Assembly (NCBI GenBank): GCA_028344855.1
Contig: JAOMCC010000005.1
Span: forward strand, 1-44,210
Origin: Nitrosomonadales bacterium
Lineage (GTDB): Bacteria > Pseudomonadota > Gammaproteobacteria > Burkholderiales > Methylophilaceae
DNA length: 44,210 nt
Reading direction: 5' to 3'
Part shown: positions 3,902-17,426 of the stretch, in pieces
How the letters are laid out: every line of letters starts with the position of its first letter
How positions within the stretch are numbered: the first letter of the stretch is position 1
Position numbers and translations under genes: made by a program
Notes under the pieces: generated by a model
What the model was told of the DNA's origin: nothing
Seen by the model: only the letters and a program-made list of their open reading frames with translations
Databases searched by the model: none

Positions 3902-4924
3902 ATGATTATAGTAATGAATAAAACAGCAACAGAAGAGCAAATTGAACTTGTTGTTTCTAGAATTAAGGACAAGGGTTTAGAGGCGAGTATATCTAAAGGT
4001 ACTGAAAAAACTGTAATCGGTGCTGTTGGAGATGAGAGATTACTTGATCCTAAACTATTGGATAATTTGCCTGGCGTAGAACAAGCAATGCATATTGTTA
4101 AGCCATACAAAATTGTTGCGCGTGAATGGCATCCTAAGGATACGGTTTTAGACATAAAAGGTCATTTAATTGGCGGAAAACATATCCAAATTGTTTCAGG
4201 ACCATGTTCGGTCGAAACACCAGAACAGATGAAAAAATCAGCTAAAGCTGTTAAGGCAGCGGGTGTAAAGTTAATGCGAGGCGGGGCTTTTAAACCAAGA
4301 ACTAGCCCCTACACTTTTCAGGGAGTAGGTTTTGATGGCTTAGAGATGTTCAGAAAGGCAGCTGATAATGAAGGCTTACCAATCGTCACCGAACTTTTAG
4401 ATGTAAGACATCTTGATAAGTTTTTAGAACATAAAGTTGACGTAATTCAAATAGGTACAAGAAGTATGCAAAATTTTGAATTACTAAGGGAAGTAGGAAC
4501 CCTCAAAATTCCGGTTATTTTAAAAAGAGGGATGTCAGCAACAATTTCTGAATGGTTAATGGCTGCAGAATATATTGCTTCTGGAGGAAATCATAATATT
4601 ATCTTTTGTGAAAGAGGTATAAGAACATTTGAAACTTATTATAGAAATGTTTTAGATGTTACAGCGATTCCAGTTTTAAAAAAAGAAACACATTTGCCTG
4701 TAATTATTGATCCTTCTCACGCAGGTGGAAAAGCTTGGATGGTGGCAGCTCTATCTCGGGCTGGTATCGCCGCTGGTGCTGATGGCTTACTTGTAGAAAT
4801 GCATCCAAATCCATGTGAAGCATGGTGTGATGCAGATCAGGCTATAACGCCAACTGAATTAAAAGATTTAATGAAAGATTTGACTGCTATTGCGAAGATA
4901 TTAGGTCGTAATATATCAAATTAA
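3902..4924 (+). CDS. aroF: 3-deoxy-7-phosphoheptulonate (DAHP) synthase, type I-beta with N-terminal ferredoxin-like domain
   Basis: DAHP synthase joins phosphoenolpyruvate and erythrose 4-phosphate, the first step of the shikimate pathway. Residues about 1-75 match the ferredoxin-like regulatory domain (MIIVMNKTATEEQ start) found in the Thermotoga-type enzymes, where aromatic amino acids bind. The TIM barrel follows with VSGPCSVETPEQ (metal-ligand cysteine), RGGAFKPRTSPYTFQG (substrate-binding KPRTS), ILKRGMSATISEW and IIDPSHAGGKAW (metal-ligand histidine). This is unlike the E. coli AroF/G/H subtype. An AGGA ribosome-binding site lies just before the ATG. In many betaproteobacteria tyrA and aroA follow hisC; here this gene holds that position and the next gene is pqqB. 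The symbol aroF is used in the broad sense. Confidence 0.93.
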   Translation: MIIVMNKTATEEQIELVVSRIKDKGLEASISKGTEKTVIGAVGDERLLDPKLLDNLPGVEQAMHIVKPYKIVAREWHPKDTVLDIKGHLIGGKHIQIVSGPCSVETPEQMKKSAKAVKAAGVKLMRGGAFKPRTSPYTFQGVGFDGLEMFRKAADNEGLPIVTELLDVRHLDKFLEHKVDVIQIGTRSMQNFELLREVGTLKIPVILKRGMSATISEWLMAAEYIASGGNHNIIFCERGIRTFETYYRNVLDVTAIPVLKKETHLPVIIDPSHAGGKAWMVAALSRAGIAAGADGLLVEMHPNPCEAWCDADQAITPTELKDLMKDLTAIAKILGRNISN

Positions 4925-9359: not shown

Positions 9360-10115
9360 TTACCAGTATTTTTCTATTGTTATATTACCAGGGTTGCTTC
9401 GTCGATTAATTTCTAGACCTTTATTTTTTAAATTATTAATTGTTTCTTTTATCATATCTGGATTACCACATATCATGAATTGAGAAGTTTTAGATATTTT
9501 GATTTTAGTAGTAGTTTCAAATATACCATTTTCAATTGCGTTTGGTATTCTTGTATTTAAACACCCATCGATTTTTTCTCTTGTAACAGATTTGATGTAA
9601 TGAAATTTTTGTGGATATTTATTTTTAAATTTAGCTATTTGATCTAAATAGGTTAATTCTTCTTTATTTCTCACTCCATGAATTAAGATAACTTTTTTAA
9701 ATCTATTCCAAGGAGCATCTGTTTTTAATAACGAAATAAATACACCTGAACCAGTTCCTGTAGCCAATAACCATAAGTTATCACCTTTTGGAATCTCGCT
9801 CATAACAAAATAACCAAAAGCATTATTATTAACCAATATGTTATCGCCAGATTTAAGTTCGCTTAGTTTTGGTGTGAGTTTTCCATCAGGTATTTTAACG
9901 TAAACGATTTCTAAGAAATTATCTGAAGGAGCACTAACATAAGAGTAAGGCCTGCTAATAATTTCATTATTTATTTCTAGCGCTATTCTAGTAAATTGAC
10001 CTGAGATATATGGATTTACTCTAGCAGCAATTTTAATTGATGCTAATGAGTCAGTCCAATTTTTATGTTCCAGAACCTTACCTTCAATCCAATTACTTTT
10101 TGAAATAGGCTGCAT
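9360..10115 (-). CDS. fpr: Ferredoxin--NADP(+) reductase
   Basis: A 251-residue flavoprotein matching the bacterial Fpr subfamily. FAD binding is shown by RPYSYVSAP near residue 54. NADP binding is shown by LWLLATGTGSGVFISLL near residue 113 and by MICGNPDMIKE. The C-terminus NPGNITIEKYW ends in the aromatic-terminated tail typical of E. coli Fpr. The enzyme moves electrons between NADPH and ferredoxin or flavodoxin. It lies 55 bases downstream of a 7Fe ferredoxin gene, itself downstream of the sulfate assimilation genes on the same strand. From that position I infer that it helps reduce the ferredoxin used by the CysI sulfite reductase, since no cysJ flavoprotein is present. Confidence 0.93.
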   Translation of the reverse strand: MQPISKSNWIEGKVLEHKNWTDSLASIKIAARVNPYISGQFTRIALEINNEIISRPYSYVSAPSDNFLEIVYVKIPDGKLTPKLSELKSGDNILVNNNAFGYFVMSEIPKGDNLWLLATGTGSGVFISLLKTDAPWNRFKKVILIHGVRNKEELTYLDQIAKFKNKYPQKFHYIKSVTREKIDGCLNTRIPNAIENGIFETTTKIKISKTSQFMICGNPDMIKETINNLKNKGLEINRRSNPGNITIEKYW

Positions 10116-10170
10116 ATATTAATTATAGAAATACATAGGAATTATAAAGCTGTTAATAGCATTAATAAAT

Positions 10171-10497
10171 TTATTCTTCTACCAGTAACTTACGTTTATC
10201 TGTTTCTTTACTATATTTATCTGCATCTGGGAGCGGATCTTTTCGTGCAGTAATTATTGGCCAAACTTTTGCTAGTTTTGCATTAATTTCTATAAATTCT
10301 TGTTGGTCCTCTGGAACATCGTCTTCAGCATAAATTGCTTCAACTGGACATTCTGCAACGCATAAAGTGCAGTCAATACATTCTTCGGGATCAATTGCAA
10401 GAAAATTAGGTCCTTCCACAAAACAGTCAACTGGGCATACATCTACACAATCAGTGTATTTACATTGAATACAAGATTCAGTTACAACATAAGTCAT
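10171..10497 (-). CDS. fdxA: Seven-iron ferredoxin (FdxA, Azotobacter ferredoxin I type)
   Basis: A 108-residue ferredoxin with one [3Fe-4S] and one [4Fe-4S] cluster expected. The cysteine pattern is in [17 protein letters not shown] and in [15 protein letters not shown], and the rest ([40 protein letters not shown]) follows Azotobacter FdI closely over its whole length. It carries one or two low-potential electrons in the cytoplasm. The gene starts 34 bases after cysN and is followed by fpr on the same strand. This places an NADPH-to-ferredoxin pair directly behind a sulfite reductase operon that lacks cysJ. An AAAGG sequence lies ahead of the start codon. Confidence 0.95.
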
Positions 10498-10531
10498 TTT
10501 TACTTTACCTTTTATTTAATAATATTTTAAG

Positions 10532-11833
10532 TTATTTTTCTTTCTTATCCAATAATTCAATCATGCCTGCTCCAACTGTATGAAATGAAGTTTCATCAAT
10601 TACAATAAAGGAACCAGTGCCTCTATTTTCAAAATAGTTATCAACAATTAGTGGTTGGGCTAATTTAAAAGAGATACTTGCAATATCGTTTGTTTTAAGT
10701 TCATTTTGTACCTCTTCATGCTCAAGCGTCTCAATATTAATTTTATAATTAATATTAGTTATTTTGGCCTTAGAGGTTCTAGTCGTATGCATCAATAGGT
10801 ATGTTCTATTTATAGAAAGTGGATTTTCAGAAAGCCAACAGACTGTTGCTGTAAAATTTTTAATAGCATTGATTGGATCATCGTGATGGACTAACATATC
10901 ACCTCTGGATATATCAATCTCATCTTTTAATAGAACAGTAATTGATTGTTCAGATATAGCTTCATTAATATTCTTCTCACCAATTTTAATCTCTTTTATT
11001 AAGGACTCATTGCCAGATGGTAAAACTTTAACTTTATCATTTACTTTTAGAAACCCAGATTCAATCCGACCCATAAAGGCACGAAAGTCATGGAGTTTTT
11101 GATTTGCTGATTCTCTTGGTCGACATACGTATTGAATAGGAAATCTAAATGATGACTCTTTAAAATCATTAGTTGTATCAAGATTATCCAGTAATTCTAA
11201 AAGAGTCAATCCTTTGTACCAACCCATTGAATTACCTCTGTCAACAATCATATCCCCTTTTAATGCAGAGATTGGAAGGAATTTTATATCTGTTTTAGTA
11301 TTTTTAGGAAAAATATTTTTTTCAAATTTTTTATAATTTTCACAGATAGAATTATATTTCAATTCGTCGAAATTAATTAAATCCATTTTATTTATTGCCA
11401 CAATAATATGTTTGATGCCAAGTAATTTAGCTATATAAGTATGTCTTTTTGTTTGGGTTAAAATTCCTTTTCTGGAATCTATTAGTATTATTGCAAGTTG
11501 TGCAGTTGATGCACCTGTAACCATATTCCTAGTATATTGTTCATGACCAGGCGCATCAGCAATAATATATTTTCGATTACCGGTACTAAAATATCGATAA
11601 GCTACATCAATAGTAATTCCTTGTTCTCTCTCTGCTTGAAGCCCATCAGTTATTAATGACAAGTCAATTTCTGTCATTCCCTTTTTCTTTGATGTATTTT
11701 CAATTTGAGCTAATGTATCAGTTAAAATAGTTTTTGTATCAAATAAAAGTCTTCCTATAACAGTACTTTTCCCATCATCAACACTTCCACAAGTCATGAA
11801 TCTAAGAACAGTATCATTTATATTTTTTTTCAT
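10532..11833 (-). CDS. cysN: Sulfate adenylyltransferase subunit 1 (GTPase)
   Basis: CysN is the GTPase subunit of ATP sulfurylase; it couples GTP hydrolysis to formation of adenosine 5'-phosphosulfate by CysD. I chose the ATG at 11833, which gives MKKNINDTVLRFMTCGSVDD as the start; it is separated from the cysD stop by one base. The frame is open further upstream into cysD, but those residues have no family match. Motifs: P-loop GSVDDGKST, switch II DAPGHEQYTRNM, NKMD for guanine, and later EF-Tu-like beta-barrel domains with CRPRESANQKLHDFRAF. At 433 residues it is a stand-alone CysN with no fused CysC kinase domain. No APS kinase gene is seen in the window. Confidence 0.95.
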   Translation of the reverse strand: MKKNINDTVLRFMTCGSVDDGKSTVIGRLLFDTKTILTDTLAQIENTSKKKGMTEIDLSLITDGLQAEREQGITIDVAYRYFSTGNRKYIIADAPGHEQYTRNMVTGASTAQLAIILIDSRKGILTQTKRHTYIAKLLGIKHIIVAINKMDLINFDELKYNSICENYKKFEKNIFPKNTKTDIKFLPISALKGDMIVDRGNSMGWYKGLTLLELLDNLDTTNDFKESSFRFPIQYVCRPRESANQKLHDFRAFMGRIESGFLKVNDKVKVLPSGNESLIKEIKIGEKNINEAISEQSITVLLKDEIDISRGDMLVHHDDPINAIKNFTATVCWLSENPLSINRTYLLMHTTRTSKAKITNINYKINIETLEHEEVQNELKTNDIASISFKLAQPLIVDNYFENRGTGSFIVIDETSFHTVGAGMIELLDKKEK

Positions 11834-11834
11834 T

Positions 11835-12737
11835 TTAGAAATACCCTTCTTTTTTTCTTTGCTCCATTGAAGCCTCAGATACTTGATCATCTAGTCTTGT
11901 TTCACCTCTTTCTGAAATTGAAGTAGATGCTGTTTCTAATATTATTTTCTCTACTGTATCTGCATTACTTTCAACAGGTGCAGTGCAGGTTATATCGCCA
12001 ACAGTACGAAATCTGACTGTAATATTTTCAATAATTTCATTAGATTTTGCAGGTGTCACATTTGTTATTGGTACAATTGTATTGTTTCTTCTGACTATTT
12101 CTCTTTTATGTGCAAAATATATATTAGGTAGCGAAAGATTTTCTCTTTCAATATATTGCCATACATCCATCTCCGTCCAATTAGAAATTGGAAACGCCCT
12201 AATATTCTCTTCATTATGAACTTTAGCGTTATATATATCCCAAAGTTCAGGCCTTTGATTTTTTGGATCCCATTGTCCAAACTCATCACGAAAACTCATG
12301 ATTCGTTCTTTTGCTCTAGCTTTTTCTTCATCTCTTCTTGCTCCCCCAATACAGCAATCAAATTTGTTTTCTGAAATAGCTTCAAGTAATGTTATTGATT
12401 GATACTTATTTCTTGGCTCATCATCAGTTTTTAAAACGACAGAGCCTTTTTTCATTGATTCTTCAAGCGAAGCAACAATAAGCCTTTCACCAAGCTCATT
12501 CACTTTTTCATCTCTAAAATTAATCACTTCTGGGTAATTGTGTCCGGTATCAATGTGCATTAAGGGGAATGGAAATCTACCAGGTCTGAAAGCTTTTTCA
12601 GCAATTCTTAATAGACAAAGCGAATCTTTTCCTCCAGAGAAAAGTAAAACAGGATTACTGCATTGTCCCGCAACCTCCCTCATAATATGTATCGCTTCGG
12701 ATTCCAACCAATCTAGATGAGTTAATAATTTTTTCAT
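11835..12737 (-). CDS. cysD: Sulfate adenylyltransferase subunit 2
   Basis: CysD is the catalytic subunit of ATP sulfurylase and converts sulfate and ATP to APS and pyrophosphate. The PP-loop pyrophosphatase motif LLFSGGKDSLCLL is at residue 31 or so. Other family segments are FPLMHIDTGHNYPEVINFRD, CCIGGARRDEEKARAKERI and FPISNWTEMDVWQYI. The end ERGETRLDDQVSEASMEQRK matches the usual C-terminus (RxDD, SxxxME..KK). At 300 residues its length is normal. Its start overlaps the cysH stop by one base (TAATG) and its stop is one base from the cysN ATG, so cysH-cysD-cysN are translationally coupled. Confidence 0.96.
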   Translation of the reverse strand: MKKLLTHLDWLESEAIHIMREVAGQCSNPVLLFSGGKDSLCLLRIAEKAFRPGRFPFPLMHIDTGHNYPEVINFRDEKVNELGERLIVASLEESMKKGSVVLKTDDEPRNKYQSITLLEAISENKFDCCIGGARRDEEKARAKERIMSFRDEFGQWDPKNQRPELWDIYNAKVHNEENIRAFPISNWTEMDVWQYIERENLSLPNIYFAHKREIVRRNNTIVPITNVTPAKSNEIIENITVRFRTVGDITCTAPVESNADTVEKIILETASTSISERGETRLDDQVSEASMEQRKKEGYF

Positions 12738-13363
12738 TATTTATCACCTTGATTATGAAGACCGCATTCTCTTTTTTCATCAACTTTTGTTGGGTCAAAA
12801 TAGTCAAATTCATTTTCTAGATTATTTTCATCCATATAATCCTCTAGTTCCAAATCTGACCAATAGTAAAAAGGGCTTATTTTTAATAATCCTTCATTTG
12901 ATTCACTTACAATATCTATATTATCCCTAAATTTTGTCTGTCCTTTTCTTAAGTTAGTAATCCATAAATCAGGCTTTATTTCTTTCATCGCTCTTTTAAA
13001 AGGTTCTAGTTTTACTTGCTCTGTGAATTCTTTATGTTTTGGGTCGCTAATTTCTGGAATTTGACCCATAAAAACTTCTCTGTGTGCAGATGTATGAATA
13101 GGAATATAGAGTTTTAGGTTTAAATTAAAGGATGAAATAATCTTTTCAGCATAAACATATGTAGCTTTAGTGTTATATCCAGAATCACACCATAAAACTT
13201 TAATATCTGATTTTTCTTTTACACATAAATGAATTATTGCAGCTTCATAAGGACGAAAATTTGTCGTTAAAATAGGGTTTGTACTATTTTCTAGTGCCCA
13301 TCTAATAATTTCTGAAGGCCTTCTATCTCTTAATTCTTTATTAATAATTGTTAGATTTTTCAT
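12737..13363 (-). CDS. cysH: Phosphoadenylyl-sulfate (PAPS) reductase
   Basis: CysH reduces activated sulfate to sulfite with electrons from thioredoxin or glutaredoxin. The start of the PP-loop-like fold is altered as usual for the family, the segment VLWCDSGYNTKATYVYAEKI corresponds to the conserved VDTGYLFPETY region, and the C-terminal RECGLH carries the catalytic cysteine. The paired cysteines that bind a [4Fe-4S] cluster in APS reductases (CC...CxxC) are absent, which points to a PAPS-using enzyme and thus to an APS kinase gene elsewhere. At 208 residues it is short compared with E. coli CysH (about 244). It sits between the DUF934 gene and cysD. Confidence 0.88.
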   Translation of the reverse strand: MKNLTIINKELRDRRPSEIIRWALENSTNPILTTNFRPYEAAIIHLCVKEKSDIKVLWCDSGYNTKATYVYAEKIISSFNLNLKLYIPIHTSAHREVFMGQIPEISDPKHKEFTEQVKLEPFKRAMKEIKPDLWITNLRKGQTKFRDNIDIVSESNEGLLKISPFYYWSDLELEDYMDENNLENEFDYFDPTKVDEKRECGLHNQGDK

Positions 13364-13371
13364 GATAAATT

Positions 13372-13974
13372 TTATCGTTTAATACGTTTCCAAACTGGAT
13401 CTAAAATATCAAATGCTCCTTGGTAAGGCTCAGTAAAGTCATCAAGACTTTTTATTGCATCGTTTGGATCTCGATCCTTTCTAATTAAATAACTTGTGAA
13501 TCCAGAGCGCTTGAGAAAATATATCTGATCTTTTAAAACATCTCCAAGTGCTCTTAATTCATTTCTAAATTTATATTTATTTCTTAATTGATTACCAATG
13601 GAGAAAATTCTTCCATCTGAGAACTTTTCAACATATATTGCAATTAAAGGAAAATTGTTTAAATCACCTAAGACTTCTATAAATTTATGAATTTCTTCAT
13701 GTGTTGAAAACCATATTCCAATTTCTTTATTTAAAAATCTTTTGTTTAGTTTTTCTTGATGATAACGAAAAACTTTTAAAGGAAGTAAAATTTTACCAGT
13801 TTCTGGATATTTAGTTTTAATTACTTGATCATCTGTAGGATAGTCTTCTCCTGATAATTTAAATGCTACTACTTTTCCAGCTTGCATTTTAATTTTTTGT
13901 TCTATTTTTGGTAATTCAACAGTAATCCACTCATCATTAACAATATTTTTATTTTTTATTAATTGTGATTTCAT
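13372..13974 (-). CDS. DUF934 family protein associated with CysI
   Basis: A 200-residue soluble protein whose gene overlaps the cysI stop by four bases (ATGA). DUF934 proteins are found almost exclusively next to proteobacterial cysI genes that lack cysJ, and are often labelled as probable sulfite reduction oxidoreductases; a direct biochemical role is not established to my knowledge. Segments seen include VVAFKLSGEDYPTD, LPLKVFRYHQE, IYVEKFSDGRIFSIGNQLR, LRALGDVLKDQIYFLKRSGF and the tail EPYQGAFDILDPVWKRIKR. There are no cysteine clusters or obvious nucleotide-binding motifs, so a cofactor-binding claim cannot be made from the sequence. Confidence 0.85.
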   Translation of the reverse strand: MKSQLIKNKNIVNDEWITVELPKIEQKIKMQAGKVVAFKLSGEDYPTDDQVIKTKYPETGKILLPLKVFRYHQEKLNKRFLNKEIGIWFSTHEEIHKFIEVLGDLNNFPLIAIYVEKFSDGRIFSIGNQLRNKYKFRNELRALGDVLKDQIYFLKRSGFTSYLIRKDRDPNDAIKSLDDFTEPYQGAFDILDPVWKRIKR

Positions 13975-15628
13975 TCAGTGGCCTCTGAATTTTGGTAAAC
14001 ATATTTTTTAAAAGGATCAAGACCTATTCGAGAAACACAGTCTATAAATATTTCCTCCTCATTTCTGTTATTTAAATAGACTTCAATAATTTTTTTAATA
14101 ACAATAGGCATTTCTTTGGCAGAAAAGGAGGGACCAATTACTTTTCCTATGCTGGCAAAGTTTCCTTGATTGCCTCCAATAGTTACTTGATACCACTCAC
14201 TTCCATCTTTATCTACGCCTAATATACCAATATGACCAACATGATGATGACCACAAGCATTCATACATCCTGATATATTTAGATTTACATCTCCAATATC
14301 ATGCAAATAATCTATATCTTCAAAAAGATCCTGAATCGATTGAGCTATTGGAATACTTTTAGCATTTGCTAAGGAACAGAAGTCACCTCCTGGGCAGCAT
14401 ATAATGTCTGTTAAAAGTCCAATATTTGGGGTAACTAGATGATACTTTTTAGCTTTAATCCATAATTCATGAAGTTTATCTTCTTGAACATCAGCTAAGA
14501 TCAAATTCTGTTCATGAGATACTCTAATTTCACTAAAGCTATATTCCTCAGATAAATTTGCAACGGCTCTCATTTGAGAAGAGGAAGCATCACCAGGAGG
14601 GTTTCCGGTCTCTTTTAAAGAAAAAATAACAGACCGGTACCCTTTCTTTTTATGAGGATTGGTACATTTAGAAACCCATTGATTAAAAGATTTATCTTTT
14701 TCATGACTCTTTAAACTATCTTTTTTAATTTTTTTATAATCAGGTTCTGAAAAATATTTTTTTATTCGATTTAACTCTTCAGAATTAATAGTATTTGGAC
14801 CGTCTTTTATATATTTCCATTCCTCATCAACAAGTTTTTTAAATTCTTCAATCCCAAGAGATTTTACTAAAATTTTTATACGTGCTTTATAGATATTATC
14901 TCTTCGACCATAAAGATTATAAACTCTTAATATTGCCTCACAATAAGTTAGGATATGCTTCCATTCAAGTTCATTTTTTATAACGGATCCAATTACTGGT
15001 GTTCGGCCTAAACCACCACCAACCCAAATTTTAGTAACGATTTCATTATTTTTATTCTTAAAAAATTCTAGGCCGATATCGTGACATTGGACTAGAGCCC
15101 TATCTTTTTTTGAGCCAGTTATTGCAATCTTAAACTTCCTTGGAAGTAGGGCAAATTCTGGATGAAAAGAACTCCATTGCCTTAAAATTTCTGCAATATG
15201 CCTTGGGTCTATAATTTCATCATAAGTAACTCCTGCAAATTGATCCGTAGTTATATTTCTAATACAGTTTCCTGAAGTTTGAATAGCATGCATTTCAACT
15301 TTAGCTAATTCTTTTAAAATATTTGGAGTTTCTTCTAGTTTTGGCCAATTAAATTGAATATTTTGTCTTGTACTAAAGTGACCATAACCTCTGTCATATT
15401 TATCAGCAATATCAGCTAATTTAAATAATTGATTGGATGAAAGAAGTCCATAAGGTATCGCAACTCTTAACATAGGTGCATGACGTTGAATGTAAAGACC
15501 ATTCTGAAGTCGAAGCGGTCTAAATTCTTCATCAGATAAATCTTTTTTAAGTAACGATCTAGTTGATTTTGGTATTGATTTACTCTTTCATCAACTATTT
15601 TTTTATCAATGTGATCATATTTGTACAT
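13971..15628 (-). CDS. cysI: Sulfite reductase hemoprotein beta-component, reading frame broken once near the N-terminus
   Basis: CysI carries siroheme coupled to a [4Fe-4S] cluster and reduces sulfite to sulfide. The cluster cysteines are visible in CCPGGDFC and SGCMNACGHHH. The gene is in two frames. An ATG at 15628, preceded by AAAGG, encodes 29 residues starting MYKYDHIDKKIVDERVNQYQ and ending in YLKK; that frame then stops at 15467-15469. The rest of the protein, from DLSDEEFRPLRLQNGLYIQR on, is in the -1 frame, continuous to the stop at 13971. Both parts match the usual betaproteobacterial CysI N-terminus when joined, giving 552 residues. The join falls at AAAAAAG (15542-15548), a known -1 slippery heptamer. 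The cause may be a one-base deletion in an A-run, a sequencing error, or programmed or slippage-based frameshifting. Confidence 0.9.
15542..15548 (-). other. A AAA AAG heptamer at the cysI frame change
   Basis: Read on the minus strand, the zero-frame codons are TTA AAA AAG. This is the same heptamer that drives -1 frameshifting in E. coli dnaX. A slip of one base back makes the next codon GAT and continues as DLSDEEF, exactly the conserved CysI sequence. Five bases downstream a modest hairpin can be drawn: TCT and GAAG (within 15524-15536) against CTTC and AGA about 17 bases further on. I see no Shine-Dalgarno-like stimulator upstream. The match of motif, phase and position is seen directly; its use by the cell is unproven. 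Confidence 0.6.
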
Positions 15629-15643
15629 ATTGAACCTTTTTTA

Positions 15644-16411
15644 TCACTTAATTAGCTGAATGCCAACAATTAATAAAACGATAGCCAAAATAAAACGTAA
15701 CCATTTCTCATCAATTTTTGCACTCAAATTACTTCCTAATGAAATTCCTGGTATTGAACCTACTAATAATGAAAGTAATAAATAACTATTTACTGTCCCT
15801 AGATTTAAATGACCTAATCCGGCAAATAATGTTAAAGGAACTGCATGGGCAATATCAGTTCCAATGACTTTTTTTATACTCAGAGAAGGGTAAAGTAAAA
15901 TTAAAGCTGTAACACCCAGCGCTCCTGCTCCAACAGATGTTAATGTAACTAATACACCTAATAATAAACCTAATAGTATAGTTAGAATAGTTGTATTTTT
16001 TTCATTCTTAATAATTTTTTGCCTAGATTTTTTTAAAATAAATGGTTGTAAAATGACTGCAAAGGCAGTGAGTACTAATGCAATTCCTAAGAAAAAATTA
16101 ATGATTTCTACATTTTCAAAAGCATATAAATCAATCCCTTTTAAATAGAAAGTTGTAAAGAATGAAGCAGGAATACTTCCTAGCATTAAATTTTTAACAA
16201 TCTTCCATTCAATATTATTTAAACGTGAATGAGAAATAACTCCAGCAGATTTGGTAATTGCTGCGTAAAGTAGATCTGTACCAATTGCTACAGCTGTTGG
16301 AAATTTAAATAATAAAACAAGAAGAGGGGTCATTAATGACCCGCCTCCAACACCTGTCAACCCTACCAGGAGACCAACAACAAAACCAGAAAATACAAAC
16401 TCAAAATTCAT
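15644..16411 (-). CDS. TSUP-family membrane transporter (TauE/SafE, former DUF81)
   Basis: A 255-residue integral membrane protein with about eight hydrophobic segments arranged as two similar halves. The first half starts VVGLLVGLTGVGGGSLMTPL and the second carries LLGVLVTLTSVGAGALGVTA; these repeated glycine-rich segments are the hallmark of the TSUP family, whose members move sulfite, sulfonates, sulfate or other sulfur compounds. The gene ends 15 bases before cysI and is divergent from cysB, so it is the first gene of the sulfur assimilation unit. No sulfate ABC transporter or SulP permease lies nearby, so an uptake role for sulfate is a reasonable inference; efflux of excess sulfite is the alternative. 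Confidence 0.87.
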   Translation of the reverse strand: MNFEFVFSGFVVGLLVGLTGVGGGSLMTPLLVLLFKFPTAVAIGTDLLYAAITKSAGVISHSRLNNIEWKIVKNLMLGSIPASFFTTFYLKGIDLYAFENVEIINFFLGIALVLTAFAVILQPFILKKSRQKIIKNEKNTTILTILLGLLLGVLVTLTSVGAGALGVTALILLYPSLSIKKVIGTDIAHAVPLTLFAGLGHLNLGTVNSYLLLSLLVGSIPGISLGSNLSAKIDEKWLRFILAIVLLIVGIQLIK

Positions 16412-16505
16412 AAGATAAAACTTTAATTTAATTGGAGTGAAATATAGCAGATTTTGATATACTATTTTAATAATAAATATTTCTATTAATATAACTTTTG
16501 AATAT
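16412..16505. promoter_or_regulatory. Divergent control region between the sulfur assimilation unit and cysB
   Basis: This 94-base, very A+T-rich region must hold the start signals for the minus-strand sulfur operon and the plus-strand cysB gene. A TATATT sequence lies on the minus strand about 40 bases before the transporter ATG, and TTGATA at 16456-16461 is a possible -35 element for cysB. CysB-type regulators usually bind next to such starts, but their sites are poorly conserved and I cannot point to one. Confidence 0.4.
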
Positions 16506-17426
16506 ATGAAACTTCAACAATTAAGATGCGTTTATCAGATAGTACAAAATGATTTTAATATCTCTAAAGCTGCTGAAGTTCTGCATACTTCGCAACCTGG
16601 AGTAAGTAAACAAATTCAACTTTTAGAGGATGAGATTGGTATTAAAATTTTTCAAAGGAATGGAAAAAGATTGACTGGCCTAAGCGATGCTGGAAATGAC
16701 TTATTTAAATCAATTTCAGAGATTATTAGAGAGGTATCAAATATAAAAAATATTTCTAATGAATACGAAAAAGATGATACAGGCACATTTACAATTGCAA
16801 CTACACATACGCAAGCAAGATATAAATTACCTAATATAGTTGAGGCTTTTGTAAAAAAATATCCTAAAATTAATCTTAATATTCATCAAGGCGACCCTTC
16901 TCAGGTAACTGAGCAAATTTTGAAAGGGGAGGCTGATGTTGGGATTGCAACCGAATCAATTGGTCAAAATGATAAAATCTTATGTATTCCATGCTATTCA
17001 TGGAATCGCGTTTTGGTATTTCCAAAAAATCATTCGTTAATGCAAATCAAAGAAATCACATTAGAAAATATTGCTTCTTTCCCAATGATTACCTACGACT
17101 ATGCTTTTACCGGCAGTACAATCGTTTCAAAAGTATTTAAGGAAGTCAATATTAAACCAAATATTATGTTAACCGCAATTGATGCTGACGTAATTAAAAC
17201 TTATGTAGAATTAGGTTTAGGGATTGGATTGATTGCTGAAATGGCTTATGACAAATATAAAGATTCAAATTTAGATTGCAGAGATGTTAGTCATTTGTTT
17301 CCAACAAGCACTACTTTTATTGGAATTAGAAGAGAAACTTTTGTTAGAGGGTTTACCTATGACTTTATAAAGATGTTTACTCCTGAAATTCAGGAATCGG
17401 AATTAAGAAATTTTTTAAAAATATAA
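16506..17426 (+). CDS. cysB: LysR-family transcriptional regulator, CysB type
   Basis: CysB is the activator of sulfate assimilation genes, responding to N-acetylserine and to sulfide or thiosulfate. Residues about 1-60 form the winged helix-turn-helix (LQQLRCVYQIVQNDFNISKA then LHTSQPGVSKQIQLLEDEIG), with QPGVSKQIQLLE as the recognition helix typical of CysB/Cbl. The ligand domain follows, with FTIATTHTQARYKLP near residue 95, the segment that in CysB binds the inducer, and VELGLGIGLIAEMAYD near residue 235. At 306 residues it is a little shorter than E. coli CysB (324). Its divergent placement from the sulfur operon supports the assignment and suggests control of that operon. Confidence 0.93.
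   Translation: MKLQQLRCVYQIVQNDFNISKAAEVLHTSQPGVSKQIQLLEDEIGIKIFQRNGKRLTGLSDAGNDLFKSISEIIREVSNIKNISNEYEKDDTGTFTIATTHTQARYKLPNIVEAFVKKYPKINLNIHQGDPSQVTEQILKGEADVGIATESIGQNDKILCIPCYSWNRVLVFPKNHSLMQIKEITLENIASFPMITYDYAFTGSTIVSKVFKEVNIKPNIMLTAIDADVIKTYVELGLGIGLIAEMAYDKYKDSNLDCRDVSHLFPTSTTFIGIRRETFVRGFTYDFIKMFTPEIQESELRNFLKI

Follow-up and report, generated by a model that had tools for sequence, protein, structure and literature searches.

A frame break at an in-phase A AAA AAG heptamer in a cysI-like gene of a Methylophilaceae draft genome is very probably a private one-base deletion

The window, a stretch of 44,210 nucleotides, is contig C33 of a draft genome (G000) that comprises 814,801 bases in 37 contigs and is estimated to be 61% complete. 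The GC content of the window is 32%. Named near relatives are Methylophilaceae, including Methylophilales bacterium HTCC2181, and the group is presumably marine OM43. A cysI-like gene, which is split over two reading frames, heads a minus-strand cluster that continues with a DUF934 gene, a cysH-like gene, cysD, cysN and the genes for FdxA and a ferredoxin-NADP reductase-like protein, all of them in open frames. Upstream of the cluster lie a TauE-type exporter and a divergent CysB-family regulator. The features of the locus are listed here in window coordinates.

13971..15628, minus strand: cysI-like NIR_SIR hemoprotein gene, split over two frames (Pfam NIR_SIR and NIR_SIR_ferr; frames of congeners)
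15542..15628, minus strand: first part of the protein, read in frame 0 for 29 codons as far as YLKK (90% identity with the first 29 residues of the orthologue in G009)
15542..15548, minus strand (read 15548-15542): AAAAAAG heptamer in the phase A AAA AAG, the site of the frame change
15481..15534, minus strand: predicted downstream stem-loop, not exceptional (fold energy compared with shuffles and relatives)
15467..15469, minus strand: TAA closing frame 0 after 53 codons
13971..15473, minus strand: open reading frame of 500 amino acids in the -1 frame, counted from its first ATG (relatives have 52 further residues at the N-terminus)
13372..13974, minus strand: DUF934 gene directly downstream of the cysI-like gene, frame open
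12737..13363, minus strand: cysH-like PAPS/APS reductase gene, frame open (Pfam PAPS_reduct above its gathering score)
11835..12737, minus strand: cysD, frame open (three CysD models above their curated cut-offs)
10532..11890, minus strand: cysN, frame open (TIGR02034 above its cut-off, two longer CysN models just under theirs)

Profile searches with the 500-residue part of the split gene placed both Pfam domains above their gathering scores (NIR_SIR, PF01077, 211.5 bits; NIR_SIR_ferr, PF03460, 104.1 bits). The same part matched ten NCBIfam models, all under their curated cut-offs, and the equivalog cut-off for NADPH-type CysI (TIGR02041) was missed with 98.3 versus 756.55 bits, a score that refers to the 500-residue part only. 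The context of the cluster makes an assimilatory sulfite reductase the natural reading of the gene. The NCBIfam cysH-type models likewise remained under their cut-offs for the cysH-like gene, as did the best model scores for the ferredoxin-NADP reductase-like gene. For the region 9360-17426, a ferredoxin donor for this 'CysI' seems plausible, because the protein falls under the NADPH-CysI cut-off and the cluster contains FdxA together with the ferredoxin-NADP reductase-like gene. The open frames of cysD and cysN share 56 bases (11835-11890); the CysN models align to the cysN frame only from residues 15-29 onward, and the true cysN start therefore probably lies further inside it.

Translation of the cysI-like gene verified the break. 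Frame 0, starting at the ATG at 15628, encodes MYKYDHIDKKIVDERVNQYQNQLDRYLKK over 29 codons and out-of-frame codons thereafter, with a total of 53 residues, and the -1 frame encodes KKDLSDEEFRPLRL... (DLSDEEF onward) up to a stop that ends at 13971. A first-pass annotation of this DNA had described an N-terminus to YLKK in one frame and the remainder in the -1 frame, and had noted that AAAAAAG at 15542-15548 sits at the frame change in the correct phase; both descriptions are accurate. The run at the site consists of six A's (15548-15543). No further stop or frame change was found in the rest of the -1 frame, and a search for a second intact cysI copy returned a single match only in the available 61% of the genome. 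The internal ATG at 15473 was considered as the start of a deliberate product and set aside, as no ribosome-binding site was seen by eye upstream of it.

The first-pass annotation had also pointed to related genomes, and to runs of seven A's in particular, as the place to compare the site. This comparison was carried out with genus-level relatives, none of which belongs to the same species as the window. The gene was found in 26 of 31 genomes, including the window's own, and in all 14 with a completeness of at least 90%. Besides the window's genome, 24 of these span the N-terminus, and the match in G027 starts at a contig edge. Every one of the 24 congeners reads through the N-terminus in a single unbroken frame, and the open frames of the 24 congeners that cover the whole gene comprise 548-559 residues. 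An in-phase A AAA AAG was detected at the site in none of the 24. AAAAAAG in the other phase (AAA AAA G) is present in six of them, an in-frame run of at least seven A's in three and the residues K-K at the site in seven. The four nearest relatives (G003, G028, G009 and G017), which are 84-87% identical over 500 residues, carry TTA AAC AAA GAA or TTA AAT AAA GAA (TTA AAY AAA GAA), encoding L-N-K-E. Beyond the genus, a search with a strict motif missed many distant loci, and counts were therefore limited to the genus. A family-wide search matched 172 of 187 genomes. The matches listed omit both G000 pieces and weak hits, for example those in G027, G144, G156 and G187; each listed match spans query residues 1 to 98-100 without a change of frame. 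A number of the listed open frames are short, e.g., those in G083 (143) and G111 (226), which may represent contig ends or breaks further on.

Selection on the gene was analyzed with the Nei-Gojobori method on the 500-codon part. The dN/dS ratios of the window against G003, G028, G009 and G017 are 0.062-0.070, at the high end of the values among these four relatives (0.042-0.068). Several pairs have a dS close to saturation, and with G018 dS is undefined in most comparisons. These ratios are close to those of intact orthologues and no second lesion is present, which leaves three possibilities for the break: a recent origin, an artefact or a bypass. An old pseudogene was rejected as an explanation on the same grounds, namely the ratios of 0.062-0.070 and a single lesion with no second break or stop.

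The presence of a slippery heptamer exactly at the frame change has to be judged against the frequency of such words in this DNA. AAAAAAG occurs 47 times in the window versus 45.22 expected occurrences and is not enriched, and the in-phase form A AAA AAG is frequent, with 220 occurrences in 1271 open reading frames of the complete relative G018. One-base deletions were simulated in the A or T runs of these 1271 mechanically called frames, excluding runs 30 bases or less from the end of a frame. Deletions that left an in-phase heptamer of the form XXXYYYZ at their position numbered 322 of 6329 in runs of five bases, 177 of 2949 in runs of six, 701 of 1524 in runs of seven, 482 of 671 in runs of eight and all 132 in runs of more than eight. 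Since 701 of 1524 deletions in seven-base runs leave such a heptamer behind, the heptamer, its phase and the frame change are not an independent coincidence. Removal of the third base of the Asn codon from TTA AAY AAA G yields TTAAAAAAG, in which the heptamer is phased such that slippage by -1 would restore the frame. An ancestral TTA AAY AAA GAA that lost one base would thus have given rise to A AAA AAG in a repairable phase. With the codons seen in the nearest relatives as the starting point, a deletion within the Asn codon would suffice, and a run of seven A's would not be required. Along an alternative route, the Asn codon changes to Lys first, as in the congeners with K-K, and one A is then lost from the run of seven with the same heptamer as the result. 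We infer that the heptamer originated as a by-product of the deletion and that the deletion has no function.

The surroundings of the heptamer were searched for signals that stimulate frameshifting. None of the five Shine-Dalgarno-like words tested (AGGAG, GGAG, AGGA, GAGG and AAGG) occurs between the ATG at 15628 and the heptamer. Downstream, a stem-loop is indeed predicted, as the first-pass annotation had claimed, but its stem starts after seven unpaired bases and not after about five. Its fold energy is -16.7 kcal/mol (z -1.37), and 20 of 200 shuffled sequences are at least as stable. The same stretch in 21 relatives ranges from -9.4 to -21.6 kcal/mol, with the window more stable than 17 and less stable than four of them, and in G012 and G005 the same outer pairing is seen by eye in the absence of an in-phase heptamer. 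The downstream stem does not clearly stand out, and the fold test is compatible with a weak effect.

Frame breaks elsewhere in the assembly were surveyed with 1271 open reading frames of G018 as queries. Open reading frames of at least 100 residues were compared, matches were accepted at an E value of 1e-10 or better, one query was kept per target interval and pieces were scored at E <0.01. In 589,640 bases of G000, the frame is broken in 4 of 462 orthologues matched by the G018 queries, namely the cysI-like gene and the three genes described below, and in stretches of four relatives in 1 of 218, a gene of G017 that breaks at a G-run and that we take to be serC-like. This is no significant excess of breaks in G000 over the relatives (4/462 versus 1/218, Fisher p = 1.0); a first, smaller survey had given 3/300 versus 1/218. 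That a break adjoins an A/T run means little in such DNA, since runs of at least six A or T occur 4.2 times per kb in the window. A run of nine A's (4697-4705) marks the frame change of a fur-family gene (Pfam FUR) on contig C10 of G000 (L201). This gene is in two pieces in G000 and G029 and in a single piece in the other 27 of 29 matched genomes of the genus, and the break in G029 lies at a different base further upstream and is not shared. On contig C1 (L230), a gene beside a run of seven T's at about 79702-79738 is read in two frames. We take this gene, named from its sequence, to be miaA-like; among 29 matched genomes it is in two pieces in G000 alone, and the match in G012 contains a TAA. 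A frame change with weak support was also seen near the 3' end of an ArsC-family gene on contig C19 at about 1184-1195 (L210), next to runs of six A's and four T's, with the second piece matched at E = 0.008. Breaks in conserved genes such as fur suggest errors in the assembly without proving them. The order of the G000 contigs agrees with assembler names that were ranked by length and sorted as text, and the near relatives G028 and G009 carry NODE-type names; these are presumably single-cell genomes.

The best explanation of the observations is that the cysI-like gene, normal in other respects, lacks one nucleotide in this single assembled genome. That this is a private one-base deletion, either an error of the draft or a recent private mutation, with the heptamer as its by-product and not as a recoding site, we regard as very probable. 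The base would be missing either from the draft alone, through an error of amplification, reads or consensus, the assembly being fragmentary and 61% complete, or from the cell itself through a recent private mutation. Loss of a single base, through either mutation or error, was one of the two branches put forward in the first-pass annotation, and the single frame in all 24 congeners supports it. Between the two origins we lean towards error. It is slightly more likely than not that the cysI of the living cell is intact and that the draft dropped one base, in keeping with the presence of the gene in every near-complete congener, the open frames of the neighboring cys genes, the lack of a second lesion, the low dN/dS, the broken frames of other conserved genes of the assembly such as fur, and its 37 contigs at 61% completeness. 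Nevertheless, the break rate is not significantly higher than in the stretches of the relatives, and an ancestral AAY codon would mean that the lost base did not belong to a long homopolymer, so that a mere miscount of run length is a less natural explanation. A real and recent private mutation, after which the cell has lost sulfate assimilation or survives on leaky slippage at the heptamer, is a possible though less likely origin; the AT-rich DNA with its abundant A/T runs would suit it, and a section of PMC3812077 correlates indels in repeats of 3-8 bases with bypass under selection, but the rest of the cys cluster is open and the gene carries no further lesion. If the deletion is real, some full-length product would be expected, given the part of PMC5009743 in which A AAA AAG is set against four other heptamers in E. 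coli. That the deletion is both real and fixed in the species, and that leaky -1 slippage at the newborn A AAA AAG yields enough sulfite reductase, seems improbable to us.

The other branch of the first-pass annotation, in which frameshifting or slippage of the polymerase restricts CysI output, is not supported, with an unconserved site, none of the five words upstream, a hairpin that does not clearly stand out and a run of only six A's. Programmed -1 frameshifting at A AAA AAG as a device that sets CysI output could draw on the correct phase of the heptamer and on a hairpin seven nucleotides downstream that is more stable than those of most relatives, but the in-phase site is missing in every congener, the five words are lacking upstream, the energy of the hairpin falls inside the range of the relatives and the unshifted product would be a stub of 53 residues; this reading is unlikely. 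Even less credit is given to transcriptional slippage at the A-run that restores the frame as in insect endosymbionts. The small AT-rich genome and the precedents from Blochmannia and Buchnera (portions of PMC3017870 and PMC5009743) speak for it, but the run of six A's compares with nine or more in the relevant portion of PMC3017870 and with n > 7 in that of PMC3711429. Recoding is improbable, with nothing specific in its support.

A literature search returned no paper that combined at least four of five terms for frameshifting, recoding and cysI sulfite reductase. In common with the -1 site of E. coli dnaX, the window has A AAA AAG in the correct phase and a downstream stem-loop that can be drawn; unlike dnaX, it is without a Shine-Dalgarno-like word upstream, its hairpin does not clearly stand out, the site is unconserved in 24 congeners and the frame-0 product is the short stub. 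In an excerpt of PMC9307594, A AAA AAG is counted in 68 E. coli genes, and spontaneous frameshifting in vivo is put at 10^-4 to 10^-5. According to passages of PMC5009743, frames of endosymbionts are corrected by slippage at long poly(A) runs, and homopolymer frameshifts in Blochmannia are the subject of the accessible part of PMC3017870. The cysI-like gene resembles these Blochmannia and Buchnera cases as described there (PMC3017870) in having a break at an A-run in a conserved gene of a small AT-rich genome; it differs in a run of six and in a break that is found in one draft only and known from DNA alone. Indels in short repeats can undergo bypass (a passage of PMC3812077), and indels occur in single-cell assemblies (a passage of PMC5519541). 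The closest match is the class of singletons in the GeneTack survey, where, in the portion of PMC3711429 available, singleton frame transitions validated by BLASTp are expected to be sequencing errors and not genuine indels. Like these singletons, the cysI break is a homology-confirmed frame transition that is missing in the orthologues checked; within that portion of the survey no difference was found, and the break falls in this class.

The finding calls for caution with draft genomes: where coding DNA is AT-rich, the deletion of a single base will often produce a slippery heptamer that is in phase. For this reason, a heptamer that coincides with a frame change is weak evidence of recoding when orthologues lack it. 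Should the deletion in the cysI-like gene prove real and rescued, it would clearly illustrate how an indel can generate the site of its own bypass.
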